A DNA stretch of 57,092 bases from positions 1,770 through 58,861 of the forward strand of contig MEKT01000027.1 in the NCBI GenBank assembly GCA_001767435.1, given 5' to 3'. The notes beneath the pieces were generated by a model, which saw nothing but the letters and a program-made list of their open reading frames with translations, did no database searches and was not told the origin of the DNA. Shown here one piece after another: positions 5,999-35,449 of this stretch (the first letter of the stretch is position 1; the number at the start of each line of letters is the position of its first letter). Source of the stretch: Acidobacteria bacterium RIFCSPLOWO2_02_FULL_65_29 (GTDB lineage Bacteria; Acidobacteriota; Vicinamibacteria; Vicinamibacterales; CAVVIG01). The position numbers and the translations under genes were made by a program.

Positions 5999-8263
5999 TC
6001 AGAAACGAACCAGCCTCGTGGCTTTGACGGCGAACGTCCGGTTCAGGAGCCCCTGCGCGGCCCCGCTGTCGGTCGTCCGGCCATCGCTGTACACGACGAA
6101 CAGCTCGCTGCCGGGCTGATATTCCCAGCGCCAGCGAACGCTGGCGCTCACGGTGTGCGCGCTGGGGTTGAGCTGCACGAGGCTGCTCACCATCATCCGC
6201 GGCGTCGGGGTGAGAATGAACCGTGAATTGAGCAGCGTCGCTCGGAACTCCCCGAATGGCAGATCGACCCAGTTGAGCGACACGCTCGGCTCGAACGCGA
6301 ACTGCGGCACGATCCCGATTCGCCCGTTGTAGCTCGCCTCGGTCCGTGTGCCGTCGTAGAACGTGCCGTGGCCGATCGCTGCGCGGCCCGACAGCAGGCG
6401 CTGCTGGCCGAGCGAATACGACGCTCGCACGTTCCGAGAGGAATAACCGGCGGCGGGCACCACCACACCCGGAGCGATGGCGAAGCTTCTGGGAACCAGC
6501 TCGTACTCCCGCGTGTAGTCCAGCGCGAACTGATCGCTGCTTTGAAAATCGGTCTGGAAGCGCCCGAGCGCCCGGCGGTTCTCGACCGACGATCCCCGCG
6601 CATCGGTGACGTAGTCGAGGCTGCCGATGAAGTTGAATTTCCGCACGAGGGTCCGGCGCCTGGGCCGAGGGCTGAACCGCGCTTCCCCGAGCGTCCGACG
6701 AAAGTCGGTACGGCGCACGTATCCCGTCTGGGCGTCGAACCGCTCGCCGACGAGCAGGTGCTCGCCGCTCACCCCGTAGCGATCGCCCGCATATTCGAAG
6801 GCGCCGCGATAGCTCGTGGTGTCCCCCGCCACGCCCGGCGTGTGGCTCCGGGCGTAGTAGCCATTGGCCGTCACGTTCGTGAACAGGAAGAAGTTGCCGT
6901 CGACGCCGAGGACCGTGTTCGACACGGTGCCGGACGCATCGGGGGTGCGACGGGTGGCGATGACACCAACGTTGCTGCGCCGGAGCACGTCGCGCTTCAC
7001 GCGGATCGTGCTGAAATTGGTCTTCACCGCGCCCGCCGACTCGTGGTGGCCCGTCTCGATGTTCAACGCCCCGATGCTGTAGCGTCCCGATCGCCCGGTC
7101 AGCCGCGCGCCGCCCAGCACCGGCACCGCCTGACCCTGGCTCAGCCCGATCCGACGGCTGAAGAACAGCACGGGCACATCGCCCGGCGTGCCATTCCCCG
7201 ACCCGACCCCCCCAAACGCGAAAAGGCCTTGCCCCTCGAGGAAGAAGTCGCGTTTTTCCGGGAAGAACAGGCTGAACCGTGTGAGGTTGACCTGCTGTAC
7301 GTCCTCTTCGACCTGGGCGAAGTCGGTGTTGACCGTCACGTCCGCGATCAGGCTGCGGGTGAGGCCGTACTTGAAATCGAAACCCACGTCCGCGTTCCGA
7401 TCGTTCGAGAACGGCCGCGCCGCCGTCCTGTCGGTTGTGACCGACGACACGGCATAGGGCTTGATCTCGAGATTCAGTGACTGCGCGGGCGTCTCCACGC
7501 CCACGAGCGTGGCCACCGAACCCACTCGTGCGATGGCATTCCCGGTGCCGAACGACGCCGGCATCGCGACGACGTACGAGTACTCGTTCTTCCATTTCAC
7601 GACGCGGCGCATGTTGAGGCCCCACACCTGCGGGCCCGGGCCCGGATAGCGGAGCGACTTGAAGGGAATGGACATCTCGAGCGTCCACCCGCCCTCGAAA
7701 CGCGCGGTTCGCACGTCCCACACGGTATTCCAGTTCACATTGAGCCCGTCGTCCACGATGGCCTGATCGCGGAACGCCCCGAGCGGAGTGGTCTGAAAGA
7801 ACAAGCCGTTCCGGCGATCGAGAAACGTGTCGAACACCGCCGTGAAGCTCTCGTTCTGCGTGATGTTGTTCTGGTCGCGGCGCATCTCGGTGAGCACCTC
7901 GCGCTCCGGCTGGCTGTCCCAACAGCGAGCCGACACGTAGAGATTTTGCTCATCGAAGAGAATCCACGCCTCGGTCGGCTCGGACGCCGGCGCGCCCTCG
8001 CTCGGCTCCTGCTGAATGAAGCCGTCGATCGCCCGAATCGACCGATAGACGTCTTCGTCGAGGCGCCCGTCGATCGTCAGCGGCTGCGTGGTGCGGATCG
8101 CACGAGCCGTCACGCGCCCATCCTCGTTGCGGGTGATCACGGCCGGCGGATCGGGAGCGGCGGCCATGACGGTTCTCCCCACCGCGATCGGCTGCGCGTG
8201 GACCGGCACCGAGGCCAGTCCAGCGCACAATCCGGCCAGAAACCCGCACGCTCGCGCCGTCAT
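5999..8263 (-). CDS. CBM9-like domain / DUF5916 outer-membrane barrel protein
   Basis: This 754-aa protein has a Sec signal peptide (MTARACGFLAGLCAGLASVPVHA). An N-terminal CBM9-like beta-sandwich follows, roughly residues 60-250 (IDGRLDEDVYRS then PTEAWILFDEQNLYVSARC). A long beta-rich C-terminal region (DUF5916) contains the family motif FPEKRDFFLEGQGLF and ends in the aromatic RLVRF typical of outer-membrane barrels. Family members are thought to sit in the outer membrane and bind or take up oligosaccharide-like ligands, but function is not established. A paralogue lies at 42536-44797. It is followed downstream by a repeat-rich spacer and preceded by a VWA-like gene 15 bp upstream, likely one transcript. 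Confidence 0.85.
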   Translation of the reverse strand: MTARACGFLAGLCAGLASVPVHAQPIAVGRTVMAAAPDPPAVITRNEDGRVTARAIRTTQPLTIDGRLDEDVYRSIRAIDGFIQQEPSEGAPASEPTEAWILFDEQNLYVSARCWDSQPEREVLTEMRRDQNNITQNESFTAVFDTFLDRRNGLFFQTTPLGAFRDQAIVDDGLNVNWNTVWDVRTARFEGGWTLEMSIPFKSLRYPGPGPQVWGLNMRRVVKWKNEYSYVVAMPASFGTGNAIARVGSVATLVGVETPAQSLNLEIKPYAVSSVTTDRTAARPFSNDRNADVGFDFKYGLTRSLIADVTVNTDFAQVEEDVQQVNLTRFSLFFPEKRDFFLEGQGLFAFGGVGSGNGTPGDVPVLFFSRRIGLSQGQAVPVLGGARLTGRSGRYSIGALNIETGHHESAGAVKTNFSTIRVKRDVLRRSNVGVIATRRTPDASGTVSNTVLGVDGNFFLFTNVTANGYYARSHTPGVAGDTTSYRGAFEYAGDRYGVSGEHLLVGERFDAQTGYVRRTDFRRTLGEARFSPRPRRRTLVRKFNFIGSLDYVTDARGSSVENRRALGRFQTDFQSSDQFALDYTREYELVPRSFAIAPGVVVPAAGYSSRNVRASYSLGQQRLLSGRAAIGHGTFYDGTRTEASYNGRIGIVPQFAFEPSVSLNWVDLPFGEFRATLLNSRFILTPTPRMMVSSLVQLNPSAHTVSASVRWRWEYQPGSELFVVYSDGRTTDSGAAQGLLNRTFAVKATRLVRF

Positions 8264-20056: not shown

Positions 20057-20128
20057 ATAACTGACCGCCACGCTAACGAGCGCGGCGGTCAGGCACGCGA
20101 CGAGCGCCGCGCAGACGTGGCGGGTCAT
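20036..20128 (-). CDS. 30-residue membrane peptide ORF
   Basis: An ATG at 20128 overlaps the stop of the haem lipoprotein gene (ATGA) and opens a 30-codon frame: MTRHVCAALV, then an uninterrupted hydrophobic stretch to VSVAVSY, ending RAPSP. One membrane helix is predicted. The exact ATGA overlap and the membrane-like composition favour translation. The last codons lie in a GGCTCGGGG word repeat, so the real protein may have been shortened by that repeat. No family recognised. Confidence 0.4.
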   Translation of the reverse strand: MTRHVCAALVACLTAALVSVAVSYSRAPSP

Positions 20129-20691
20129 GGCTGCTTCTTGGGCGGGCCCGGCGGGTACCAGTACTTCAGGTGGCAGGTTTCGCACGCCTTGTCCAGGCTC
20201 TCGCCCGAGTAGAGCAGCGCGTCTTTGTCTTTGGCCTCGATCGCTTTCAGCGCTTCCATCGCCGCGTCGTGAAGGCCGTGCGCGAGCAGCGTCCAGCTCG
20301 TCCGGTCCTGGCTGAGCATCGCCTCGATCTGATCGGGGCCGAGCTCGATCGCGGGATCCTCGGCCTTCGCGCCGGGCCCGGCGATGCGACGGCCGGGCAC
20401 GAGCAGCAGGTTGCTGGCTTCGGCAAGCGCGATCGCCCGGCGCCGGACCTCGTTCCACTCCTCGTCGGTCTTCGGCGCCCGTTCCTCCCGGCCCTGCGCG
20501 GTGACAATCACCTCGACCGAATCCCACAGGTAGTCGGCGCTCGGATCGACAACCGCGTCCATGATGTCTCTCACGGTCGCTGTCGGACGGTATCCGGCCT
20601 CAGGGGGCGGCGCAGGCGGCGAGCATCCGATCGCGAAGAACAGGACCGCCGACGCACTCAACGTAAGCATCCGCCGGCGACCGGCGTTCAT
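20125..20691 (-). CDS. c-type cytochrome lipoprotein
   Basis: This 188-aa protein has a lipoprotein-type signal (LSASAVLFFAIGC, C23 as probable lipidation site) and a single haem c motif CETCH near residues 170-174, close to the C-terminus (CHLKYWYPPG). The rest is helical, with conserved-looking segments DIMDAVVDPSADYLWDSV and EAMEALKAIEAKD, as in cytochrome c'-like four-helix proteins where the haem motif is also C-terminal. It is probably a membrane-tethered electron carrier or sensor in the periplasm. GGAGGG precedes the ATG, which overlaps the stop of the VWA gene (ATGA). Confidence 0.75.
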   Translation of the reverse strand: MNAGRRRMLTLSASAVLFFAIGCSPPAPPPEAGYRPTATVRDIMDAVVDPSADYLWDSVEVIVTAQGREERAPKTDEEWNEVRRRAIALAEASNLLLVPGRRIAGPGAKAEDPAIELGPDQIEAMLSQDRTSWTLLAHGLHDAAMEALKAIEAKDKDALLYSGESLDKACETCHLKYWYPPGPPKKQP

Positions 20692-21476
20692 CGACCCTCC
20701 ACGAGAATTTCTCCGGTCAGGAGCGCCCCAAGCGTCTCGTCCAGCTCCACGGCGTTCGCCGCGGCCAGCACCAGGCCGCCGGCCTCGCGGACGGCGTTGA
20801 AGCGCGACGCCGACACGTCGAACGCCACGAAGTAGACCGACGGCCGTCGCTGCTCCGGGCGGCGCGCGAGCACGCGCATCACGTCTTCGGGCTCTCGGCC
20901 GTCCGTATTCTCGCCGTCGGTGACCACGAGCAGATGCCGCCGCGTCAGGCCGGAGCCATCGAGCACGTGGATGGCCGCGATAACCGCCTCGCCGATCGGC
21001 GTGCCGCCATCGGGCCTGAGCTTCGCAAGCGCGTCGGCGGCCCGGGCTGGATCGGCCGGCGACAGCGGAATCACCTCTCTCGCGGCCGACGGGGGCCGTT
21101 GACTGAACTCGATCAGGCCGACGTGCACCGGCTCGTCGGCGTGGACCGCCGCGTAGGCCGCGAACTGGCCGACGAGCGCGCGCGCCGCTTCGCGAGCGAT
21201 GTCGATTTTCGGACGCGGCGATCCGCTGGCGTCCGGCACCGAATCGGCCATGCTGCCCGAGACGTCCATCAACACGACCGCCGCGATGCCCTCCCGCGCA
21301 GCGCCGCCGCCGCCAGGCCCGATCTCGCGTTCGATGGACGACAGGTCAACCGCCGGCGGCTCTTCGTCCGCGCCGCCGCGATCGCCTGACCTCAGCCACA
21401 TGATGAAACTGGCGATACCCACCAGGAGCACCAGGTTGGTGAACCTGCGGCTCGGCCGGGAAGAATCGCGGACCAC
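20688..21476 (-). CDS. membrane-anchored VWA-domain protein
   Basis: This 262-aa protein has one N-terminal membrane segment (NLVLLVGIASFIMWL) and a VWA domain facing the periplasm. The MIDAS motif is DVSGSMAD, with further ligand positions in RPDGGTPIG and VVTDGENTDG. VWA domains of this type bind a partner through a bound divalent cation. It is tightly packed between the amine oxidase (3 bp) and the cytochrome lipoprotein (4-nt overlap), so the three probably work together. It could act as the adaptor for the oxidase or cytochrome (inference). Start codon GTG. Confidence 0.8.
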   Translation of the reverse strand: MVRDSSRPSRRFTNLVLLVGIASFIMWLRSGDRGGADEEPPAVDLSSIEREIGPGGGGAAREGIAAVVLMDVSGSMADSVPDASGSPRPKIDIAREAARALVGQFAAYAAVHADEPVHVGLIEFSQRPPSAAREVIPLSPADPARAADALAKLRPDGGTPIGEAVIAAIHVLDGSGLTRRHLLVVTDGENTDGREPEDVMRVLARRPEQRRPSVYFVAFDVSASRFNAVREAGGLVLAAANAVELDETLGALLTGEILVEGR

Positions 21477-21479
21477 GAT

Positions 21480-22958
21480 TCACGCCCTCGGCTTCGCCAC
21501 GCCATCGCGCTCGGCGATCGCGCGGGCCACGAGCGCGCCGCTATGCAGCGCGCCCTCCATATAGCCCATGAACGCGTACGACGTGTACTCGCCGGCAAAA
21601 CGCAGGCGCGAGCCGTCTCGCCACAGCGTCGGGCCCATGCTCGTCACCTGGCCAGGCGCCGGAAACGAGTACGACGCCTTGGCCCAGACATCCGACGGCC
21701 AGTCCATGAAGCGGCCCCGCACGTAGGCGGGGCGAATACCTGTATAGACCTTCGAGAGCTCGGCGAGATAACTTTCGAGCTTCAGCGCCGTCTGTGCCGG
21801 CCAGGCGCGACACGTGTCGGCCGATGGTCCACCTGAAAACGCCACAAGGGCCGCGCCGGCGCCCGGCTGACCGTCGGTGCCGTCCCACGTCTGATTGATG
21901 GGGCCATCCGAGAGCAGATCCGGCGCCAGCTCGGCACGCCGCCAGAACCGATCCTGCAGCGCGATGAGACATTTCACGTTCGCGCCCATCTGGGGCGCAA
22001 GCGACGCCGGCAGCACCGGATCGAACGCGATCTTGTTCCACACCGACGGCGGAACCGTGACGACCACGTCTTCGGCTTCGAGTGTCCGCCCGTTGGCCAG
22101 CCGCACACGCGCGAGCCGATCGTCCACCGACACGGCCTCGACCGGCGTGGCCAGCAGCACGCGCTTCTCGCCGACCTCGGTCGCCAGCCTTCGCGCGAGC
22201 TGCTGGTTGCCGCCGCGGCACCTGTAGACCTCGCTGTCGGTCCAGTACCGCTCCAGACCGTGGCCCTTCACCATCGCCAGGTTGCCCAGATAGCTCTGCC
22301 ACTCGCTTCGCACGCCGGCGTCCGACGCCATCATCACGTCGATGGCCGCCTTGCACGGCGACGACGCCTGCAGTCCCTGAATCCACGACGCCAGTGTCCG
22401 CCGATCGAGCGCCTCGGCGCCCGGCGTCGACCACGGCCGATCGGCGTCGGTGACGCGCGCCGCTTCGGCGTTCATCGTGTTGACCGCTTTCTCGAGCTCC
22501 TCCCACAGCGCTTCGGACTGCTCCTCGGTGAGCTTCTTGCCACCCAGCATGATCGGCGCTTCGAGATCTTCCTCCGTCACGTCCAGAAACGACAGATTGA
22601 ACCGCTCGGCGTAGGCCACCCACGTCGGGTGATTCGATCCGATCAACTCCCCGCCCCCTTCGACGTTCCTGCCAGGCACCAGATCGCTGAAGCTCACGAC
22701 GCGGCCACCCACGCGGTTGCGGGCCTCCACGACCGTGACGTCGTAGCCGGCGCGCGAGAGCTCGTAGGCCACCGTCAGGCCGCTGAAGCCCGCCCCGACC
22801 ACGATCACGCGCCGCCCGGCTTGGGCCGCGAGATCGATCCGGTTGCTGAGCAGGACGCCCGCGGCGGCCCCGAGGCTCGCCTGCAGCATCTCACGGCGCG
22901 TCAGGCCGTCGTGTGGGCGTCCGAATCGTCGATGTAATCGAGCGTACAGTTGCGGCAT
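21480..22958 (-). CDS. Tat-exported flavin amine oxidase
   Basis: This 492-aa FAD protein of the monoamine oxidase / L-amino-acid oxidase family has a twin-arginine signal (TRREMLQASLGAAAG, near residue 20), the ADP-binding Rossmann motif VIVVGAGFSGL followed by ARNRVGGRV, and a C-terminal FAD segment RLRFAGEYTSYAFMGYMEGA. Such enzymes oxidise amines to imines and release H2O2 and ammonia. Tat export of the folded flavoprotein places it in the periplasm. The downstream cytochrome could take electrons if it acts as a dehydrogenase (inference). Substrate unknown. The spacer to the upstream gene holds a tandem repeat array. Confidence 0.85.
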   Translation of the reverse strand: MPQLYARLHRRFGRPHDGLTRREMLQASLGAAAGVLLSNRIDLAAQAGRRVIVVGAGFSGLTVAYELSRAGYDVTVVEARNRVGGRVVSFSDLVPGRNVEGGGELIGSNHPTWVAYAERFNLSFLDVTEEDLEAPIMLGGKKLTEEQSEALWEELEKAVNTMNAEAARVTDADRPWSTPGAEALDRRTLASWIQGLQASSPCKAAIDVMMASDAGVRSEWQSYLGNLAMVKGHGLERYWTDSEVYRCRGGNQQLARRLATEVGEKRVLLATPVEAVSVDDRLARVRLANGRTLEAEDVVVTVPPSVWNKIAFDPVLPASLAPQMGANVKCLIALQDRFWRRAELAPDLLSDGPINQTWDGTDGQPGAGAALVAFSGGPSADTCRAWPAQTALKLESYLAELSKVYTGIRPAYVRGRFMDWPSDVWAKASYSFPAPGQVTSMGPTLWRDGSRLRFAGEYTSYAFMGYMEGALHSGALVARAIAERDGVAKPRA

Positions 22959-22963
22959 CTAGA

Positions 22964-23068
22964 GAACCTCACTCTCCATGGAACCTCGTGACTCCATGAA
23001 CCTCGCGAAGGCACCGAACCTCGTGAGAGCACCGAACCCCGCGACGGCACTGAACCTCGCGATCGCGC
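22964..23068. repeat. 17/18-bp tandem repeat array, six units
   Basis: Six units begin GAACCTC or GAACCCC: two of 17 bp, then four of 18 bp such as GAACCTCGCGAAGGCACC and GAACCTCGTGAGAGCACC. The array fills the whole spacer between the SBP-OmpA stop and the amine oxidase start (on the reverse strand the units read GGTGCC...GAGGTTC). On the reverse strand each unit offers a GAGG that could mimic a ribosome site. Confidence 0.8.
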
Positions 23069-24733
23069 CTATTCAATGGTGAACCACTGCACTTCGACCC
23101 GACGGTTCTGTTCCGAATCCTTCGAGATCGGCTCTTCCCAGCCACGGCCGACGACGTCGACGCGTGCGACGGGGATGCCGTGGCGCTCGGCCAGCAGGCG
23201 ACGGATCTCGCCCGCGCGGTTCTTGCTGAGCTCCATCGCGCGCAACGCTTGCGTGCGCACGTACGCCTCTCCGCCCTGCTGCCGGAACTTGTCGACGAGG
23301 GCGTTGTCCACGTGGCCGCGCAAGAGGAGCGTGGATCCCGGGCTGACCGCAAGCAGCTTCTTGATCGCTTCGAGGCTCCTGATATTCTCCTGGTTCGCGT
23401 TGTCGAGCGCGGCGGAGTTGGCCTCGAAGAAGAACCGGATGTCCTTGCTCAGCAGCGGATCGGCTTCGAGTGACCCTTTGGCGGCCGTGCGAATCGGCGC
23501 GATCGCGATCTTCTGATCCTTGTACGCCCCGGATTTCTCGAATGCCCGCAGGTGCTTCAGATCGACGAACCGCTCCGAGTCGATCGGATCCTTGATGAGG
23601 TCGCTGCCGTACGCGTAAATGGCCGACTGGTAGATCCCGCCGAAGCTCCCCGCCTCGCCGATCTCTCCGGAAAAGAACGCCAGGTTCTCCGGCAGATTCG
23701 ACAGGTGGACGGCCGCCAGCTCGCTTCTCGTCTCCTCGCGGCTCCACTTGAATGGACGACCGACCAGATCCAGGTAGGTGTCGGGCTGGTCGCGGACCAT
23801 CTTGTTGCCTTCGAGGACGCCGTGTACGAGGCCCGCGACGATCTCGGGATGCTGCTCCGACAGACCGCGGTGCACGACGAGGACGTCGGCCACGATCAGC
23901 AGGTTCCGGTTCGTCGTCAGCACGTGGGCCTTGCCGGTCGACTGCGTGACGACCTCGGAGACCTTGGGTTCCCACGTCACGCATCCGGCGATTCGGTTCC
24001 TGCCCGACTTGATGTCGCTCAAGAACAAGTCGCCCGCGCTGAAGCCGTCGTCGGTGTAAATGACATTGATGCGCTCCGGGTCTGGAGCGGCGTCGATGCT
24101 GCCGAGCGCGCGGACGGCCAGGCCGGCCTCCTGGGCCAGATAGCGGATGAAGAAATCCACTTCGGTGAACTGTGCGGTCGCGATGACCTTCCCTTTGAGC
24201 GCGTTGATCCGCTTGATATCGCTCCGGACCACCAGGCCATCGGCGCCGCGGGAAAACCCGATCTGCGCCGGCACCACGGCGTGAAGTTGCTTCCCGTAGG
24301 CGGCCAGGACGTCGACCGTCGTGACCGACGCGCCTATTTTGCCTTCGTTCAGCTCCGACCAGTTCTCGTCTTCGCTGACGGTCAGCTTGACCTTGAAGCC
24401 GTGCTGCTTGAAGAAGATCGAGTTTTCGGTCGGATCCAAGCCGCCGTTGGCCGCGATCAGGCCGGCGTAGCCGGCGTACTCGCTGATCTCGACCGGCACG
24501 GTGTTGTCTTTGAGCAGGAAGGCCGCCGGCGGCGCGAGCTTGGGCACTTCGAGCTGGACGTCAGCGACATCGGGGGCCGCCTCGGACGTCGCCGCGGCTT
24601 CGGGCGAGTCGGTTCCGGACGGTCCGCTGGCGCGCCGATTCGTCACCATGTACGCGCCAAGCGCGACGAGTCCGCCGATGAGCAGGATCGAAAGCAGCTT
24701 CCCTAGCGCGGTGAATCGAGGCTCGGCCATCAT
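23069..24733 (-). CDS. membrane-anchored substrate-binding protein fused to an OmpA domain
   Basis: This 554-aa protein has one N-terminal membrane helix (LLSILLIGGLVALGAYMV) and a periplasmic type-2 substrate-binding domain of the NMT1/SsuA kind, about residues 75-400 (IFFKQHGFKVKLTVSE; GKIGASVTTVDVL; NALKGKVIATAQFTEVDFFI). A C-terminal OmpA/MotB-like domain follows from about 430 (LLLRGHVDN; LSKNRAGEIRRLL; VDVVGRGWEEP; NRRVEVQW), which normally holds peptidoglycan. It may sense a small ligand while linking inner membrane and cell wall. No ABC permease or ATPase is nearby, so transport is unlikely. AAGGAGGG precedes the ATG, and the start overlaps the pspA stop (ATGA). Confidence 0.85.
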   Translation of the reverse strand: MMAEPRFTALGKLLSILLIGGLVALGAYMVTNRRASGPSGTDSPEAAATSEAAPDVADVQLEVPKLAPPAAFLLKDNTVPVEISEYAGYAGLIAANGGLDPTENSIFFKQHGFKVKLTVSEDENWSELNEGKIGASVTTVDVLAAYGKQLHAVVPAQIGFSRGADGLVVRSDIKRINALKGKVIATAQFTEVDFFIRYLAQEAGLAVRALGSIDAAPDPERINVIYTDDGFSAGDLFLSDIKSGRNRIAGCVTWEPKVSEVVTQSTGKAHVLTTNRNLLIVADVLVVHRGLSEQHPEIVAGLVHGVLEGNKMVRDQPDTYLDLVGRPFKWSREETRSELAAVHLSNLPENLAFFSGEIGEAGSFGGIYQSAIYAYGSDLIKDPIDSERFVDLKHLRAFEKSGAYKDQKIAIAPIRTAAKGSLEADPLLSKDIRFFFEANSAALDNANQENIRSLEAIKKLLAVSPGSTLLLRGHVDNALVDKFRQQGGEAYVRTQALRAMELSKNRAGEIRRLLAERHGIPVARVDVVGRGWEEPISKDSEQNRRVEVQWFTIE

Positions 24734-25470
24734 CCCTCCTTCGGTCCGATTTCCTTCGCCTTCGCCGGCGCGTCAGCGACCGGCGCCGCCTGGACGCCCT
24801 GGTTGGCGAGGAACTCGGCCAGCGCGGTTTGTTCGAGCGCCTTGCGCTCGCTTTCCTTTTCCTGGACCTGGTCCATGTTGACCATGTCTTTCGCCACGCG
24901 CGCCTTCCCGGCCGACACCTCGTAGCGCTTCTGCAGGACTTCCTCGACGGTCTTCATCGTATCGCCCAGGTCGCCGACCTTGAAGGCAACGCCCGAGAGT
25001 GCCGTCGCGGCCTCGGCCTGCGCTTCCTTGATCTTCACCTGCGACAGCTGGGTCTCGAGCCGTCGTACTTTCTCTTCGAAATCCTTCTGCGCCACTTTGG
25101 CCTGCCGGAGGTTGGCCTGGTACGCCTCTTCGGTTTCCTGAAGCTCGCTCGTGTCGGTCGTGAGATCCGCCTTCAGCTCCTGAAGCTCGCGAGCGAGGCT
25201 GCCGGCGAGATCCATGTTGCCGGCGCGATGGTTCGCCAGGATCCTTCGTTCGAGATCCTGAGCCCTCGTGGCCTTGTGCTTCACCTGGCTCTTGAGCCGC
25301 TCGGCCACGCCAGCCATTTTCGCGAGCGCCAGGTTGTAGCTCGTCATCTTGTCGCGGAAATCCTGGCGCGCGGCTTCCATGAGCGCCTCCGGGTTCGCTT
25401 CTTCGAGGCCGCTGATGAACAGGCTCAGAAACCCGCGGAACAACCGGCCGATTCGCCCCAGTAATGCCAT
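24730..25470 (-). CDS. pspA: PspA/IM30 family (bacterial ESCRT-III-like) protein
   Basis: This 246-aa protein is almost entirely alpha-helical. It starts with the amphipathic segment LLGRIGRLFRGFLSLFISGLE, then EEANPEALMEAARQDFRDK, and continues as a long coiled coil (heptads through QTEEAYQANLRQAKVAQKDF and KVRRLETQLSQVKIKEAQAE). PspA/Vipp1 proteins assemble into ESCRT-III-like rods and rings on the inner membrane and protect or reshape it. The last 40 residues (GVQAAPVADAPAKAKEIGPKEG) are a flexible tail. It is encoded between an AAA+ ATPase and the SBP-OmpA protein, not beside pspB, pspC or pspF. It may be a PspA-family paralogue rather than the classical stress PspA. Confidence 0.9.
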   Translation of the reverse strand: MALLGRIGRLFRGFLSLFISGLEEANPEALMEAARQDFRDKMTSYNLALAKMAGVAERLKSQVKHKATRAQDLERRILANHRAGNMDLAGSLARELQELKADLTTDTSELQETEEAYQANLRQAKVAQKDFEEKVRRLETQLSQVKIKEAQAEAATALSGVAFKVGDLGDTMKTVEEVLQKRYEVSAGKARVAKDMVNMDQVQEKESERKALEQTALAEFLANQGVQAAPVADAPAKAKEIGPKEG

Positions 25471-25484
25471 GTCGCCTCCAGACA

Positions 25485-25568
25485 GTTGATAGTCGACAGT
25501 CGACAGTCAACAGTTGACCGTCAGTTGGCTGACTGTGAGCTGTTGACTGTCAACTGTCGACTGTCGAC
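25485..25568. repeat. GTYRACA heptamer inverted repeat between the AAA+ and pspA genes
   Basis: Arms 25485-25513 and 25540-25568 (29 nt) pair at 26 of 29 positions. Words in the loop (AGTTGACCGTCAGTTGGCTGAC) extend the same theme. As in the sdh operon, the element separates two genes of one apparent transcript. Confidence 0.85.
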
Positions 25569-25574
25569 TTCACT

Positions 25575-27329
25575 CTATACAAACCTCCTGAGCGCTTCGA
25601 TGCGATCCTCGATCGCCTCGGGATCGAGCTCTCGGTAGCGCTCGGGAAGAAATCGCGCGTCGGTGCATTCTTTCACGGCCACGAGGTCCATGAATTCCAG
25701 TTTCCGCGTGTGCGCGCTCGGCCGGACCTCACGGAAGACGTCGGCCAGCAGGTCCTTCAGCGGCCGCTTCGGCTCGACCGCCAGCTCCCACGTGCGCAGC
25801 GCGCGCACGAGCACGCCCTCGATCTCGTGGCCGCCGAGCGTGATGCGGTCGGGCACGTCGGGCACGTCGGCGAGCGCCAGCGGCAGCTTCAGCTTGCCCG
25901 CAATCGCGACGAGGAGTGTCCGCAGCTCGTCTTCCGTCTGCGGCGGAAAGAGCGGGATGTGCACGTCGAGCCGGCCTTGGCGCTTGAGATCGACCTCGAG
26001 CAGGTCGGGACGCGACGTCGCGAACACCCAGATGATGCGCCCGCGGTTGCGCGTCTCGGACATTTCCTTGGCGAGCATCGAGTACACGCGGCCCGACAAC
26101 CCGCTGTCGTTGTCGCCCGACTCGCGGCGCCCCGCCGCCTGGTCGGCCTCGTCCACGAACACCACCACCTGGCCGATCGCGCGCAGCACGGCGAAGATCT
26201 TCTCGAGGTTCGACTCGGTCGCGCCCACCCACCGGTCGCGGAAGTTCTTGAAGACCACGCACGGCACGCCGAGCTCGCCGGCCCAGCACTGCACGAGAAA
26301 CGTCTTCCCCGTGCCGATGCGTCCGGCAATCAGGTAGCCCATCGGAAGCGCTCTCAGCGCGCCGCGGCGCAGGAGCTCGCCGTCCTCGCGCAGCCACGCC
26401 TTCACCGCGTCGTGGCCCGCGACGTGGTCGAGCGTGAACGGCGACTCGATGAACTCGAGCAGGCCCTGGCACTCGCGCTCGATCACGTCCTTCTTGCGCT
26501 CGGTCAGCCATTTCGACGTGATGGTCCGGTCGTTGCCGAGCGCCAGCGCGATGGTCGTGCGCGCGCCGACGCGGCTCAGCCCGGTCAGGCGCGACGCCAG
26601 CACGTCCATCGGCACCTCGCACCGCGTGCGCAGGTCCGGAAACTGCGACGCCTCGAGCGCCTCGAGATACGCCAGCATCTCGGGCTCGGACGGAAGCGGC
26701 AGGTGAATCGAGACGGTGTGCGGATTCTCGACCAGCAGCTCGTTGAGGTCGTGCAGCCCCTCGCTGATGAACACGGTGATGATGTTCGACTGCTGAATGC
26801 CCGGGTCGTTGGCCCAACCAAGCGCTTTGACCACGTTCGCGCTGAACGCCCCGCCGAGCTGTACGGCGTCGCCGCGCGGCACCGCGAACTCGGCGAAGTC
26901 CACGAGGACCGCGATCTTGTGCGGCGCCGACCGCGTCGTCTTCTCCGCGCTCTCGAGCGCGCGCAGGTTGAGCGTGCGCAGCAGATACCGATCGATCAGC
27001 TCGAGCGCGGAGCCCGGCTCCCGCAAGAGCGTGAGCGCGTGTCCCGTGCCGTCGGCCGGCCCCAGCGCCTGCTCGAGCCAGGCGCTCCAGTCCTCGCTGC
27101 CGCGCGTGGCTCGCACCCCGCGACTGCGGTCGTAATGCAGAACGACGTCGTAGCCGGCGAACATGACTTCGTCGAGGAAACCCTTGAGCGACAGCTGCCG
27201 CCCGCCGGCTGGCACGAGGTCGAACACGTTGCCGTGGAGGATGAACTGCGCCGCCGATCCGGTCCGAAACAGATCGCGCAACCGCATGGCCCAAGCCGGA
27301 AGCGCGGTGGTGGCCGGCGTGGCCGTCAC
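25575..27329 (-). CDS. AAA+ ATPase, degenerate plus active domain (Ycf46/Vps4-like layout)
   Basis: This 584-aa cytoplasmic protein has an N-terminal half (1-300) that looks like an inactive NTPase: a Walker-B-like IAVLVDFAEF (139-148) and an ISEGLHDLNELL sensor-like region, but no P-loop. The C-terminal half is an intact AAA+ domain: GRIGTGKT (336-343), VVVFVDEAD (388-396), FATSRPDLLEVDLKRQGRLD with sensor 1 and arginine positions, then a helical lid. In ESCRT systems a Vps4 AAA+ ATPase disassembles the ESCRT-III polymer, so the neighbouring PspA is a natural substrate (inference). The GTG at 27329 overlaps the upstream stop (GTGA); a longer 616-aa frame is rejected. Confidence 0.85.
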   Translation of the reverse strand: MTATPATTALPAWAMRLRDLFRTGSAAQFILHGNVFDLVPAGGRQLSLKGFLDEVMFAGYDVVLHYDRSRGVRATRGSEDWSAWLEQALGPADGTGHALTLLREPGSALELIDRYLLRTLNLRALESAEKTTRSAPHKIAVLVDFAEFAVPRGDAVQLGGAFSANVVKALGWANDPGIQQSNIITVFISEGLHDLNELLVENPHTVSIHLPLPSEPEMLAYLEALEASQFPDLRTRCEVPMDVLASRLTGLSRVGARTTIALALGNDRTITSKWLTERKKDVIERECQGLLEFIESPFTLDHVAGHDAVKAWLREDGELLRRGALRALPMGYLIAGRIGTGKTFLVQCWAGELGVPCVVFKNFRDRWVGATESNLEKIFAVLRAIGQVVVFVDEADQAAGRRESGDNDSGLSGRVYSMLAKEMSETRNRGRIIWVFATSRPDLLEVDLKRQGRLDVHIPLFPPQTEDELRTLLVAIAGKLKLPLALADVPDVPDRITLGGHEIEGVLVRALRTWELAVEPKRPLKDLLADVFREVRPSAHTRKLEFMDLVAVKECTDARFLPERYRELDPEAIEDRIEALRRFV

Positions 27330-28174
27330 TGGCTCTCCCTGACCCGCACGGCCGCCGTGAGCGGCGGCGGCTCCGCGAGCAGGTCCTCCATCTCGCCGTA
27401 CACCTTCTGCTGATCGCGAATCCATTGCGCCGTGCCTCCGAGCGTGGCCGTGATCTGATCAATACGCTGGGACAGCCGCTCGGGATCCGTGGAGAGCGCC
27501 GCCTGCTCCCGAATGAGCTCGACCTGCTCCTGGATGCGCACGATCTCGGCGTCGAGGAAGCGGAGCTTCTCCTTCGCCTCGGACTGCTGCGCGATGCGCT
27601 GCCGCAGGATGTCCACCTGGCTGTTCAGGCTTCGCCGGAGATCGTCGCTCACGCCCGGCGCCTCGACCTGCGCTTCGAGATCGCGGAGACGCCGATCGAG
27701 CGGCTCGCCGCGGCCGGCGTCGCCGAGCACGCGATCGATCGCGTGGCGCGCGACCAGCAGCCGCAGATACATCCACATCAAGCGGCCGAGGCCCTCGCTC
27801 TGCGTCTCGATGGCCGCGACCTCGCCCTGCGTCTGCTGATCGAGGATGCCCTTGCAGCGCGCCGCCAGCGCGTCGTACCGCCGGCGATCGCCGTCGCCCA
27901 GTCCCGAGAGCAAGCCGCCGATCTTCCGCTGCCAATCGCGCTCCGATCCCGACACATCGACCGCATCGACGACCCGCTGAAAGCGCCTGTTCGTGGACAG
28001 AAGGGCGAGATAGCCGAGCTCCATCCCGGCGCCGAGCACCCAGAAACCTGGATTGACCAGACCGAGCAGGGCAAACGACGCCACCCCCACCCAGTTCGGG
28101 GCGACAAACATGCCGAACGGGCGCGCGTTGAAGGCCGCCCGCGCGTAGTCGAAGAGGCCGCGGCTCTGGGGCAT
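27326..28174 (-). CDS. membrane coiled-coil protein, first gene of the PspA/AAA+ operon
   Basis: This 282-aa protein has a short cytoplasmic N-terminus (LFDYARAAFNARPFGM) and a hydrophobic hairpin (VAPNWVGVASFALLGLVNPG then FWVLGAGMELGYLALL), followed by about 200 residues of charged helix with strong coiled-coil character (RSLNSQVDILRQRIAQQSEA; EIVRIQEQVELIREQAAL). Both termini should be cytoplasmic, so it could be the membrane platform for the AAA+ ATPase or PspA. No named family was recognised. The ATG at 28174 is preferred over a GTG at 28240; no Shine-Dalgarno is visible, but a TACAAT lies 15 nt upstream, so the message may be nearly leaderless. The stop overlaps the ATPase start. Confidence 0.7.
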   Translation of the reverse strand: MPQSRGLFDYARAAFNARPFGMFVAPNWVGVASFALLGLVNPGFWVLGAGMELGYLALLSTNRRFQRVVDAVDVSGSERDWQRKIGGLLSGLGDGDRRRYDALAARCKGILDQQTQGEVAAIETQSEGLGRLMWMYLRLLVARHAIDRVLGDAGRGEPLDRRLRDLEAQVEAPGVSDDLRRSLNSQVDILRQRIAQQSEAKEKLRFLDAEIVRIQEQVELIREQAALSTDPERLSQRIDQITATLGGTAQWIRDQQKVYGEMEDLLAEPPPLTAAVRVRESQ

Positions 28175-33823: not shown

Positions 33824-35449
33824 GTGATTGCTTTTTCGGGCGTGGGCAAGCAGTACGGCCGGCAGGTGCTGTTTGTCGACGCGTCCTTCCAGCTCAATCC
33901 CGGTGAAAAGATCGGGCTCGTCGGCCCAAACGGCTCGGGCAAGACGACGCTCTTCCGGATGATTGTCGGCGAGGAACAGCCAGACGAAGGCGAGGTGACG
34001 GTGCCGCGCAGGTTGAGCATCGGCTACTTCCGCCAGGACGTCGAGGAGATGGCGGGCCGCTCGGTGCTCGATGAAGCGATCGCGGGGAGCGGGCGGCTCG
34101 GCGATCTCCACCACGAGCTCGAGGCGTTGCAGCGGGCGCTGTCCGAGACTGACGCCGACCGCGTGCTCGCGCGCTTCGGCGAGGTGCAGGCCGAGTACGA
34201 GCACCTCGGCGGCTACGCGCTCGAGAGCCGCACACGCGAGATCCTCCACGGCCTGGGCTTCGACGATGAGCGGATTGACGGCGACGTGGGCGCCTTGTCC
34301 GGCGGGTGGAAGATGCGGGTGGCGATGGCCCGCGTCCTGCTCGGCGATCCTGACGTGCTCCTGATGGACGAGCCGACCAACCACCTCGACATCGAATCGA
34401 TCATCTGGCTCGAGGAATTCCTCGAGACAAGGGCCGGCGCGCTCCTCATGACGACGCACGACCGCGAGTTCATGAATCGGGTGGTGACCAAGATTGCCGA
34501 GATCGACGGAGGCGTGATCACGACCTATTCGGGCAACTACGATTTCTACGAGCGCGAGCGCGCCATCCGCGAGGCGAACCGCGAGGCGGCCTACGCGCGC
34601 CAGCAGGCGATGTTCGCCAAGGAGCAGCGCTTCATCGATCGGTTCGCGGCCCACGCGGCCAAAGCGGCGCAGGTCCAGAGCCGCGTCAAAGCGCTCGACA
34701 AAATCGAGAAAATCGAGCTGCCGAAGAAGCGGCGCGTGGTGACGTTCGACTTCCACGCGCCGCCGCGATCGGGAGAGCAGGTGGCCACGCTCGAAGGGGT
34801 GACGAAGGCCTACGGCCGCCGCGTCGTGCATGACGGCCTCGACCTGACGATTCGGCGCGGCGAGCGCTGGTCGGTGATGGGCAGGAACGGCGCCGGCAAA
34901 TCGACGCTGCTCAAGATGGTGGCCGGCGTTCTCGCCCCAGACGCCGGCGCCGTGACGCTCGGCGCGAGCCTCACGATGGGGTACTTCGCGCAGCAGGCCC
35001 TGGATCTGCTGGACCCGACCCTGACGATCGACGAGCAGCTCCAGAAAGACTTCCCCCACGAATCGATCGGCGCACTGAGAAACCTCGCCGGCGCGTTCCA
35101 GTTCTCAGGCGACGAGGTCGACAAGAAGATCGGGACGCTCTCGGGCGGCGAGAAGACGCGGCTCGTGATGGCGCGCATGCTCCTCCACCCGCCCAACTTC
35201 CTGGTCCTCGACGAGCCGACCAACCACCTCGATCTGGCCACCAAGGAGATGCTGCTCGCATCGCTCGGGCACTTCGAGGGCACCATGATGTTCGTGTCGC
35301 ACGACCGGATGTTCCTCCGTGCGCTCGGCAGTCGCGTGCTCGAGCTGGGCGGCGAGGACGGCACTCATGCGCGGGCACAGGTGTATCCAGGGTCCTACGT
35401 GGACTACGTGGCCAGAACCGGCCACGAAGCGCCGGGGGTGCACAACTGA
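33824..35449 (+). CDS. ABC-F family ATPase (Uup/Etta-type, ribosome-associated)
   Basis: This 541-aa soluble protein has two ABC ATPase domains and no membrane part. Walker A motifs are GPNGSGKTT and GRNGAGKST; signature motifs are LSGGWKMRVAMA and LSGGEKTRLVMA; both Walker B motifs (LLMDEPTNHLD, LVLDEPTNHLD) contain the ABC-F specific NHLD. A charged helical linker (EKIEKIELPKKRRV region) separates the domains. ABC-F proteins bind the ribosome E site and modulate translation or give antibiotic protection; which subgroup cannot be decided here. It begins with GTG. Confidence 0.9.
   Translation: MIAFSGVGKQYGRQVLFVDASFQLNPGEKIGLVGPNGSGKTTLFRMIVGEEQPDEGEVTVPRRLSIGYFRQDVEEMAGRSVLDEAIAGSGRLGDLHHELEALQRALSETDADRVLARFGEVQAEYEHLGGYALESRTREILHGLGFDDERIDGDVGALSGGWKMRVAMARVLLGDPDVLLMDEPTNHLDIESIIWLEEFLETRAGALLMTTHDREFMNRVVTKIAEIDGGVITTYSGNYDFYERERAIREANREAAYARQQAMFAKEQRFIDRFAAHAAKAAQVQSRVKALDKIEKIELPKKRRVVTFDFHAPPRSGEQVATLEGVTKAYGRRVVHDGLDLTIRRGERWSVMGRNGAGKSTLLKMVAGVLAPDAGAVTLGASLTMGYFAQQALDLLDPTLTIDEQLQKDFPHESIGALRNLAGAFQFSGDEVDKKIGTLSGGEKTRLVMARMLLHPPNFLVLDEPTNHLDLATKEMLLASLGHFEGTMMFVSHDRMFLRALGSRVLELGGEDGTHARAQVYPGSYVDYVARTGHEAPGVHN

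Follow-up and report, generated by a model that had tools for sequence, protein, structure and literature searches.

What does a wall-bound substrate-binding protein (SBP) do in an operon of putative membrane-remodelling genes that encodes no transporter for its ligand? The question is raised by a gene cluster of Acidobacteria bacterium RIFCSPLOWO2_02_FULL_65_29 (assembly GCA_001767435.1; 5.5 Mb in 239 contigs, 97% complete), found in a 57,092-nt stretch of contig MEKT01000027.1 (positions 1,770 to 58,861), here called the window, whose coordinates are used below. Four genes at 23069–28174 encode a transmembrane (TM) coiled-coil protein (TMcc), a two-domain AAA+ ATPase, a PspA/IM30 protein and a fusion of an SBP with an OmpA-like domain (SBP-OmpA). 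The tentative answer, to which we give somewhat less than even weight, is that a known PspA/two-domain-AAA+/TMcc/SBP-OmpA envelope module is present here in an amine-linked variant, with the steps inside and outside the cell that are set out below. In this variant the usual ATP-binding cassette (ABC) importer would have been replaced by a flavin amine oxidase.

Organization of the operon

The four core genes are intact minus-strand open reading frames (ORFs) with no internal stops, linked by two 4-nt overlaps (TMcc/AAA+ at 27326–27329 and PspA/SBP-OmpA at 24730–24733), just as a preliminary description of the locus had reported. TMcc (27326–28174, ATG start at 28174, 282 aa) is a conserved member of the module, with a TM hairpin at about residues 26–61 and a C-terminal antiparallel helical coiled coil. 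It is followed by the classical AAA+ ATPase (25575–27329, GTG start, 584 aa), by PspA (24730–25470, 246 aa), a protein of the ESCRT-III superfamily and the sole PspA of the genome, and by SBP-OmpA (23069–24733, 554 aa). The preliminary description had closed the unit at 23069 and treated it as a set of four genes. In fact the operon runs further on the same strand, through genes for a flavin amine oxidase (21480–22958), a VWA-domain protein (20688–21476) and a protein of 188 aa (20125–20691) whose C-terminal part has a CxxCH motif. The oxidase and the VWA protein recur with the unit in relatives, and the common form of this larger operon includes an ABC importer.

A published module and its distribution

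That the combination might be known in other bacteria had been suspected. Ravi et al. (2024, mSystems, PMC11237479, section 18) describe operons of PspA, Snf7-like TM proteins and a two-domain AAA+ protein with an inactive N-terminal copy; longer versions add an ABC ATPase, a permease and a PBPB-OmpA protein (for example OGG56892.1), of which the ABC ATPase and permease are not required for the module. With an AAA+ alignment we collected 80 loci from named genomes and 12 from relatives. Rather than scattered homologues, a six-gene operon was recovered in many phyla; the taxa among the loci include Acidobacteriota, Planctomycetota, Myxococcota, Gemmatimonadota, Riflebacteria, Fischerbacteria and Ignavibacteriota, and one module-bearing metagenome-assembled genome is labelled Gammaproteobacteria. 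The commonest gene order is PspA-SBP/OmpA-permease-ABC ATPase-TMcc-AAA+; planctomycetes and the clade of the window itself also show permuted orders. The gene combination is thus real, widespread and already published. Because this common form carries an ABC importer, the SBP was probably a transport receptor ancestrally.

A rearranged form of about 10 kb, PspA-(short SBP/OmpA match)-TMcc-...-ABC ATPase-...-AAA+, occurs in Myxococcaceae and Archangium (L092, L093, L100, L105, L106, L110 and L114), and some of its carriers are cultured strains.

A probable exchange of the importer for an amine oxidase

No ABC permease was matched within 23 kb around the window operon; the ABC match at 33824–35449 is a soluble two-ABC-domain ATPase with ABC_tran_Xtn, encoded on the opposite strand. 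A search of the whole genome for a cognate permease returned nothing beyond a partial match (E=3e-5). The genomes of loci L032 and L107 gave no match at all, no cognate permease turned up in G037 or G335, and the best candidate in the genome of L050 is only 34% identical. The SBP-OmpA proteins of these four ABC-less operons (window, L032, L107 and L050) form a single clade, termed W (support 100/100), separate from the canonical proteins, although the AAA+ protein of L107 falls in a different AAA+ clade.

The two types differ sharply in their neighbours. Among all loci, a permease adjoins SBP-OmpA in 56 of 65 canonical cases and in none of 27 W cases (P ~7e-16), whereas an amine oxidase adjoins it in 9 of the 27 W loci and in none of the 65 canonical ones (P ~5e-6); L107 and L208, being one locus, were counted once, and the P values ignore kinship. 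When Planctomycetota were sampled by SBP-OmpA alone, a permease was present at 16 of 20 canonical loci and at 0 of 19 W loci. The SBP type switches at four points of the AAA+ tree, and in random independent pairs that differ in permease presence, the absence always goes with W. Five further genomes from the order to which the window belongs (L032 and L262–L265) show the arrangement AAA+-PspA-SBP/OmpA(W)-amine oxidase-VWA, whole or up to the contig end; in a sixth (L266) the contig stops inside SBP-OmpA. At L196 and L207, two W-type SBP-OmpA genes stand in tandem.

A second architecture parallels this one. At L038 (3761–10120) and L270 (4555–10771) an operon of the form PspA-TMcc-AAA+-amine oxidase-(TM-SBP_bac_3-LysM), with no ABC permease, occurs in genomes of the window's family (G004) and of another family of the same order (G747). 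Its receptor family and wall-binding domain are both unlike those of the window, and its oxidase is only distantly similar (~200 bits against the family profile). This parallel supports the view that an anchored binding protein plus an oxidase is a functional unit attached to PspA-AAA+-TMcc.

These observations bear on the most conventional explanation, namely that the locus is an ordinary module of the published kind, whose SBP still serves an ABC importer encoded elsewhere while the amine oxidase is a bystander. ABC genes do lie inside the operon in most relatives, and for the ABC-less locus L063 a permease of 52% identity is encoded at another place in the genome; L063, which carries the canonical SBP type, was on these grounds set aside as an ABC-less counter-example. 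The explanation is nevertheless rather unlikely in view of the genome searches above, of a W-type SBP that forms a distinct clade and never adjoins a permease, and of oxidase adjacency in two phyla combined with the parallel SBP_bac_3-LysM build. The exchange of ABC genes for an amine oxidase, with a distinct SBP clade and in two architectures, appears to be new relative to the main text of Ravi et al. (PMC11237479), where neither an amine oxidase nor a VWA protein is mentioned with this module.

The substrate-binding protein and its pocket

SBP-OmpA conforms to the one-TM fusion first described: a TM helix at residues 9–35 is followed by a TauA/SsuA-type SBP domain (about 78–410) and an OmpA-like domain (about 428–552). 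Pfam reports OmpA (PF00691) at 2e-12 and NMT1 at 4e-4, and Foldseek aligns the SBP domain with TauA at 4e-15. In the OmpA domain D476 and R506 are conserved and align with Omp38 (3td3); we take these to be the Asp and Arg that bind diaminopimelate, the two residues identified from A. baumannii OmpA. Judged by its fold and this residue pair, the domain is of the peptidoglycan-binding type.

In TauA, Glu106, Thr132 and Asp205 hold the taurine amine, and Trp176 lines the site (PMC6906117). Three alignments place Glu106, Asp205 and Trp176 at window residues D165, D283 and W254, which are conserved in both SBP types. The position of Thr132 is taken by E191, a Glu in 100% of W proteins and a Pro in 98% of canonical ones; a further acidic residue, E121 (100% of W, with Pro in 97% of canonical proteins), lies near the sulfonate-binding Gly61 of TauA. 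Altogether 22 columns switch with SBP type, 19 in the SBP domain and 3 in the OmpA domain. Such a pattern suggests that the W pocket takes an amine and selects against a sulfonate, in keeping with the amine oxidase encoded alongside.

The amine oxidase

The oxidase matches PF01593 at 7e-57 over residues 58–481 and contains the FAD-binding motif; among known structures it comes closest to monoamine, cyclohexylamine and putrescine oxidases. A twin-arginine motif, R21 R22, is invariant; the enzyme is of the Tat type and probably exported. In a reciprocal search, a close homologue was found in 16 of 382 Planctomycetota: the top three adjoin a W-type SBP-OmpA, and the next eleven examined have no module gene nearby. 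The oxidase is an operon partner of W-type SBP-OmpA, and its family is not exclusive to this system.

The gene for the 188-aa protein, a possible single-haem cytochrome by its CxxCH motif, shares 4 nt with the VWA gene. Neither Pfam nor NCBIfam gave a match for this protein, and related loci carry no homologue; it could serve the amine oxidase as an electron acceptor. The VWA protein itself has a hydrophobic N-terminal stretch and a MIDAS-like DVSGS motif, and is a conserved neighbour of both SBP-OmpA types.

PspA, the ATPase and TMcc

The assignment to PspA/IM30 holds on closer analysis. Against PspA_IM30 (PF04012; cut-off 33.9 bits) the protein scores 33.8 bits alone and 34.4 bits in the genome search, and its family profile aligns with Vipp1/PspA structures at E ~1e-12 over positions 1–214. 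By these alignments it is a member of the PspA/Vipp1 family, with a Pfam score at the cut-off. The reported lack of PspB, PspC and PspF stands in the case of PspB and PspC, neither of which was found in a genome-wide search; PspF had no separate search. The question of whether PspA needs a Vps4-like disassembly factor is discussed in PMC11746142.

The preliminary description had presented the ATPase as having a degenerate N half and an active C half, and the sequence bears this out. The PF00004 match (2e-22) is confined to the C half, which contains Walker A at 337–344, Walker B at 394–395, the aromatic pore residue W368 and arginines R451 and R454 (residue numbers include one extra front residue). 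The Walker lysine and acids and the two arginines of the second region of homology (SRH) are invariant in 91 of 91 relatives, and the C-half motifs as a whole, including the aromatic pore residue, are invariant or nearly so. In the N half the P-loop lysine is missing, G34 and D38 being kept. When the halves were aligned by hhalign they fell into Walker-B/SRH register, but at a probability below 5% (P 0.0085), which lends weak support to an AAA fold for the N half. On the strength of its Walker, SRH and pore-loop motifs, the protein is placed in the classical AAA ATPase clade, and not with MoxR/CbbX-type ATPases. The comparison with Vps4 needs qualifying: the best-scoring models are CDC48 (61 bits) and FtsH (60 bits), CdvC reaches 30 bits where its cut-off is 650, and Pfam reported neither an MIT nor a Vps4_C domain. 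Judged by the model cut-off, the enzyme is no Vps4; it may still act like one. A role in defence was considered and rejected, as PADLOC gives just a generic AAA match, IetA, at 39 bits.

TMcc belongs to no known family in Pfam and family-model searches. Its AlphaFold model (pLDDT 91) shows, besides the TM hairpin, a helical coiled coil that is BAR-like. The best Foldseek match has E 0.19, BAR-like and designed bundles reach Z 7–10, and none of the PDB matches is trustworthy. Aligned with the PspA profile by hhalign it scores a probability of 2.8%, and no ESCRT-III chain was among the matches listed by the fold search. A second ESCRT-III protein is one possible meaning that the "Snf7 with a TM segment" of Ravi et al. 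could have for TMcc, and we make no such claim.

Proposed mechanism and its alternatives

In the amine-linked variant that we propose, PspA would polymerise on the inner membrane. An AAA+ hexamer would pull on PspA and/or TMcc by means of its active ring, the C-terminal one, and its aromatic pore loop, and so drive polymer turnover, while TMcc would tether the ATPase at the membrane through its hairpin. Given the motifs and the ESCRT-III/Vps4 precedent, turnover of PspA by the ATPase with TMcc as membrane adaptor is the most likely arrangement of the cytoplasmic side. Outside, SBP-OmpA would be held in the inner membrane by its N-terminal TM helix and on peptidoglycan by its OmpA domain, and its TauA-like pocket would capture an amine. 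The ligand would be handed to, or sensed together with, the adjacently encoded Tat-type flavin amine oxidase, which would convert it; since the cognate ABC importer is gone, it would not be imported by this system. The analysis establishes the order and conservation of the genes, their domain make-up, the integrity of the motifs, the lack of ABC genes in company with a distinct SBP clade, and the recurrent pairing with an amine oxidase. We infer the amine as ligand, the export of the oxidase, the action of the AAA+ protein on PspA and the role of TMcc as tether; a signal from the SBP to PspA is speculative.

Several points weigh against this proposal. The W loci make up one SBP-OmpA clade, so that plain counts overstate their independence, and a tree-based sign test with four pairs cannot reach 0.05. 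The oxidase accompanies W-type loci in only about one case in three, and roughly half of the W-type SBP-OmpA genes have no PspA, AAA+ or TMcc gene nearby; as members of the oxidase family are also encoded outside the module, the parts are separable. The pocket was mapped by sequence alignment at ~15% identity, and the ligand could be taken up by an unlinked transporter. Finally, the cytoplasmic tail of SBP-OmpA is short and offers no obvious signal route to PspA, so coupling across the membrane, if any, would go via TMcc.

The short tail and the separability of the parts also limit a model that goes back to the preliminary description, in which SBP-OmpA is a wall-anchored sensor: ligand binding would be passed to TMcc and on to the AAA+ protein, and would change PspA polymer turnover. 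TMcc, AAA+ and PspA are indeed the conserved neighbours of SBP-OmpA in the module, and a transport role is gone once the ABC genes are lost. Yet the very short tail is accompanied by no signalling domain, and many W-type SBP-OmpA genes are located without PspA or AAA+. We regard this sensor model as unlikely.

Unlikely as well, if a little less so in our judgement, is that PspA-AAA+-TMcc works as an envelope assembly station, with the role of a chaperone instead of a sensor, building or repairing membrane around periplasmic partners (an ABC importer, or the amine oxidase and VWA protein). This accords with the constancy of PspA-AAA+-TMcc while the periplasmic cargo, be it importer, oxidase or SBP_bac_3-LysM, is swapped, and with the chaperone-like roles suggested for such PspA partners by Ravi et al. 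(PMC11237479). In sequence, however, an assembly station would look no different from a sensor.

The amine-linked reading can be extended further, to the proposal that an ESCRT-III-type machine of PspA and AAA+ gave up an ABC importer as its periplasmic arm and took on an amine-capturing receptor, anchored to the wall, together with an exported oxidase, at least twice and with unrelated receptor and wall-binding domains, thereby coupling envelope remodelling to extracellular amines, possibly polyamines. In this full form we consider it doubtful.

The widespread module is a natural candidate for an AAA+ remodeller dedicated to PspA polymers in bacteria, comparable to Vps4 for ESCRT-III, if such a remodeller exists. 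Its periplasmic half can be swapped, being an importer, a TauA-type SBP-OmpA with oxidase or an SBP_bac_3-LysM protein with oxidase, while PspA-AAA+-TMcc remains constant, so that functions inside and outside the membrane may be separated. The missing nutrient transporter and the probably exported amine-oxidising enzyme suggest that the cluster handles amines at the cell envelope, and if the ligand is an amine, the PspA system would gain a defined chemical input.

Additional features of the locus and its relatives

The gap of ~104 bp between the AAA+ and PspA genes is occupied by an inverted-repeat element (25481–25569) with 41-nt arms that are 85% complementary, composed of GTCGACAGT/GTTGACAGT units. 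Its 23-mer motif has 224 matches in the genome (up to 3 mismatches), compared to 32 for a reversed control; the element is a dispersed genome repeat whose place here is probably incidental. Between the genes for SBP-OmpA and the amine oxidase lies an 18-bp direct-repeat array (22981–23062), in which five copies of GAACCTCGYGA are spaced by 17–18 bp.

All-against-all clustering of neighbours yielded many antisense-ORF artefacts from the high-GC DNA. Apart from the VWA protein, the real-looking extra neighbours were two. A coiled-coil ORF of ~200 aa lies in the AAA+/PspA gap of canonical relatives (L045, L046, L047, L048, L049, L051 and L063) and is absent from the window. A conserved ORF of ~100 aa downstream of AAA+ was clustered at 24 loci (L033 at 7046–7360 and 23 more, e.g., L034, L035, L076, L102 and L112).

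Comparison with known systems

The closest relative is the module of Ravi et al., with which the window shares PspA, a TM protein, a two-domain AAA+ protein with an inactive N half and a solute- and peptidoglycan-binding protein in one operon; what sets it apart is the lack of the ABC ATPase and permease, the W type of its SBP, and the presence of genes for a VWA protein and an amine oxidase. The PspA/CesT-Tir operons with spermidine synthase and polyamine oxidase (PMC11237479) are likewise phage-shock-protein-linked operons with an amine-oxidising enzyme, but they contain CesT/Tir or band-7 proteins and AdoMet decarboxylase, and have no SBP-OmpA and no two-domain AAA+.

With the TauABC and SsuABC sulfonate importers the locus shares the SBP fold and pocket positions, and the permease and ATPase of the canonical operon are ABC importer parts; in the window the SBP instead carries a TM anchor and an OmpA domain in one chain, its pocket has extra acidic residues, and importer genes are missing. 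Like the ESCRT-III/Vps4 system (CdvB/CdvC), the locus combines a membrane polymer protein from the ESCRT-III superfamily with an adjacent classical AAA+ ATPase that has substrate-threading motifs. Unlike it, the ATPase has a degenerate N half in place of MIT, no reported Vps4_C and a CdvC score far under the cut-off, and TMcc has no detectable link to PspA.

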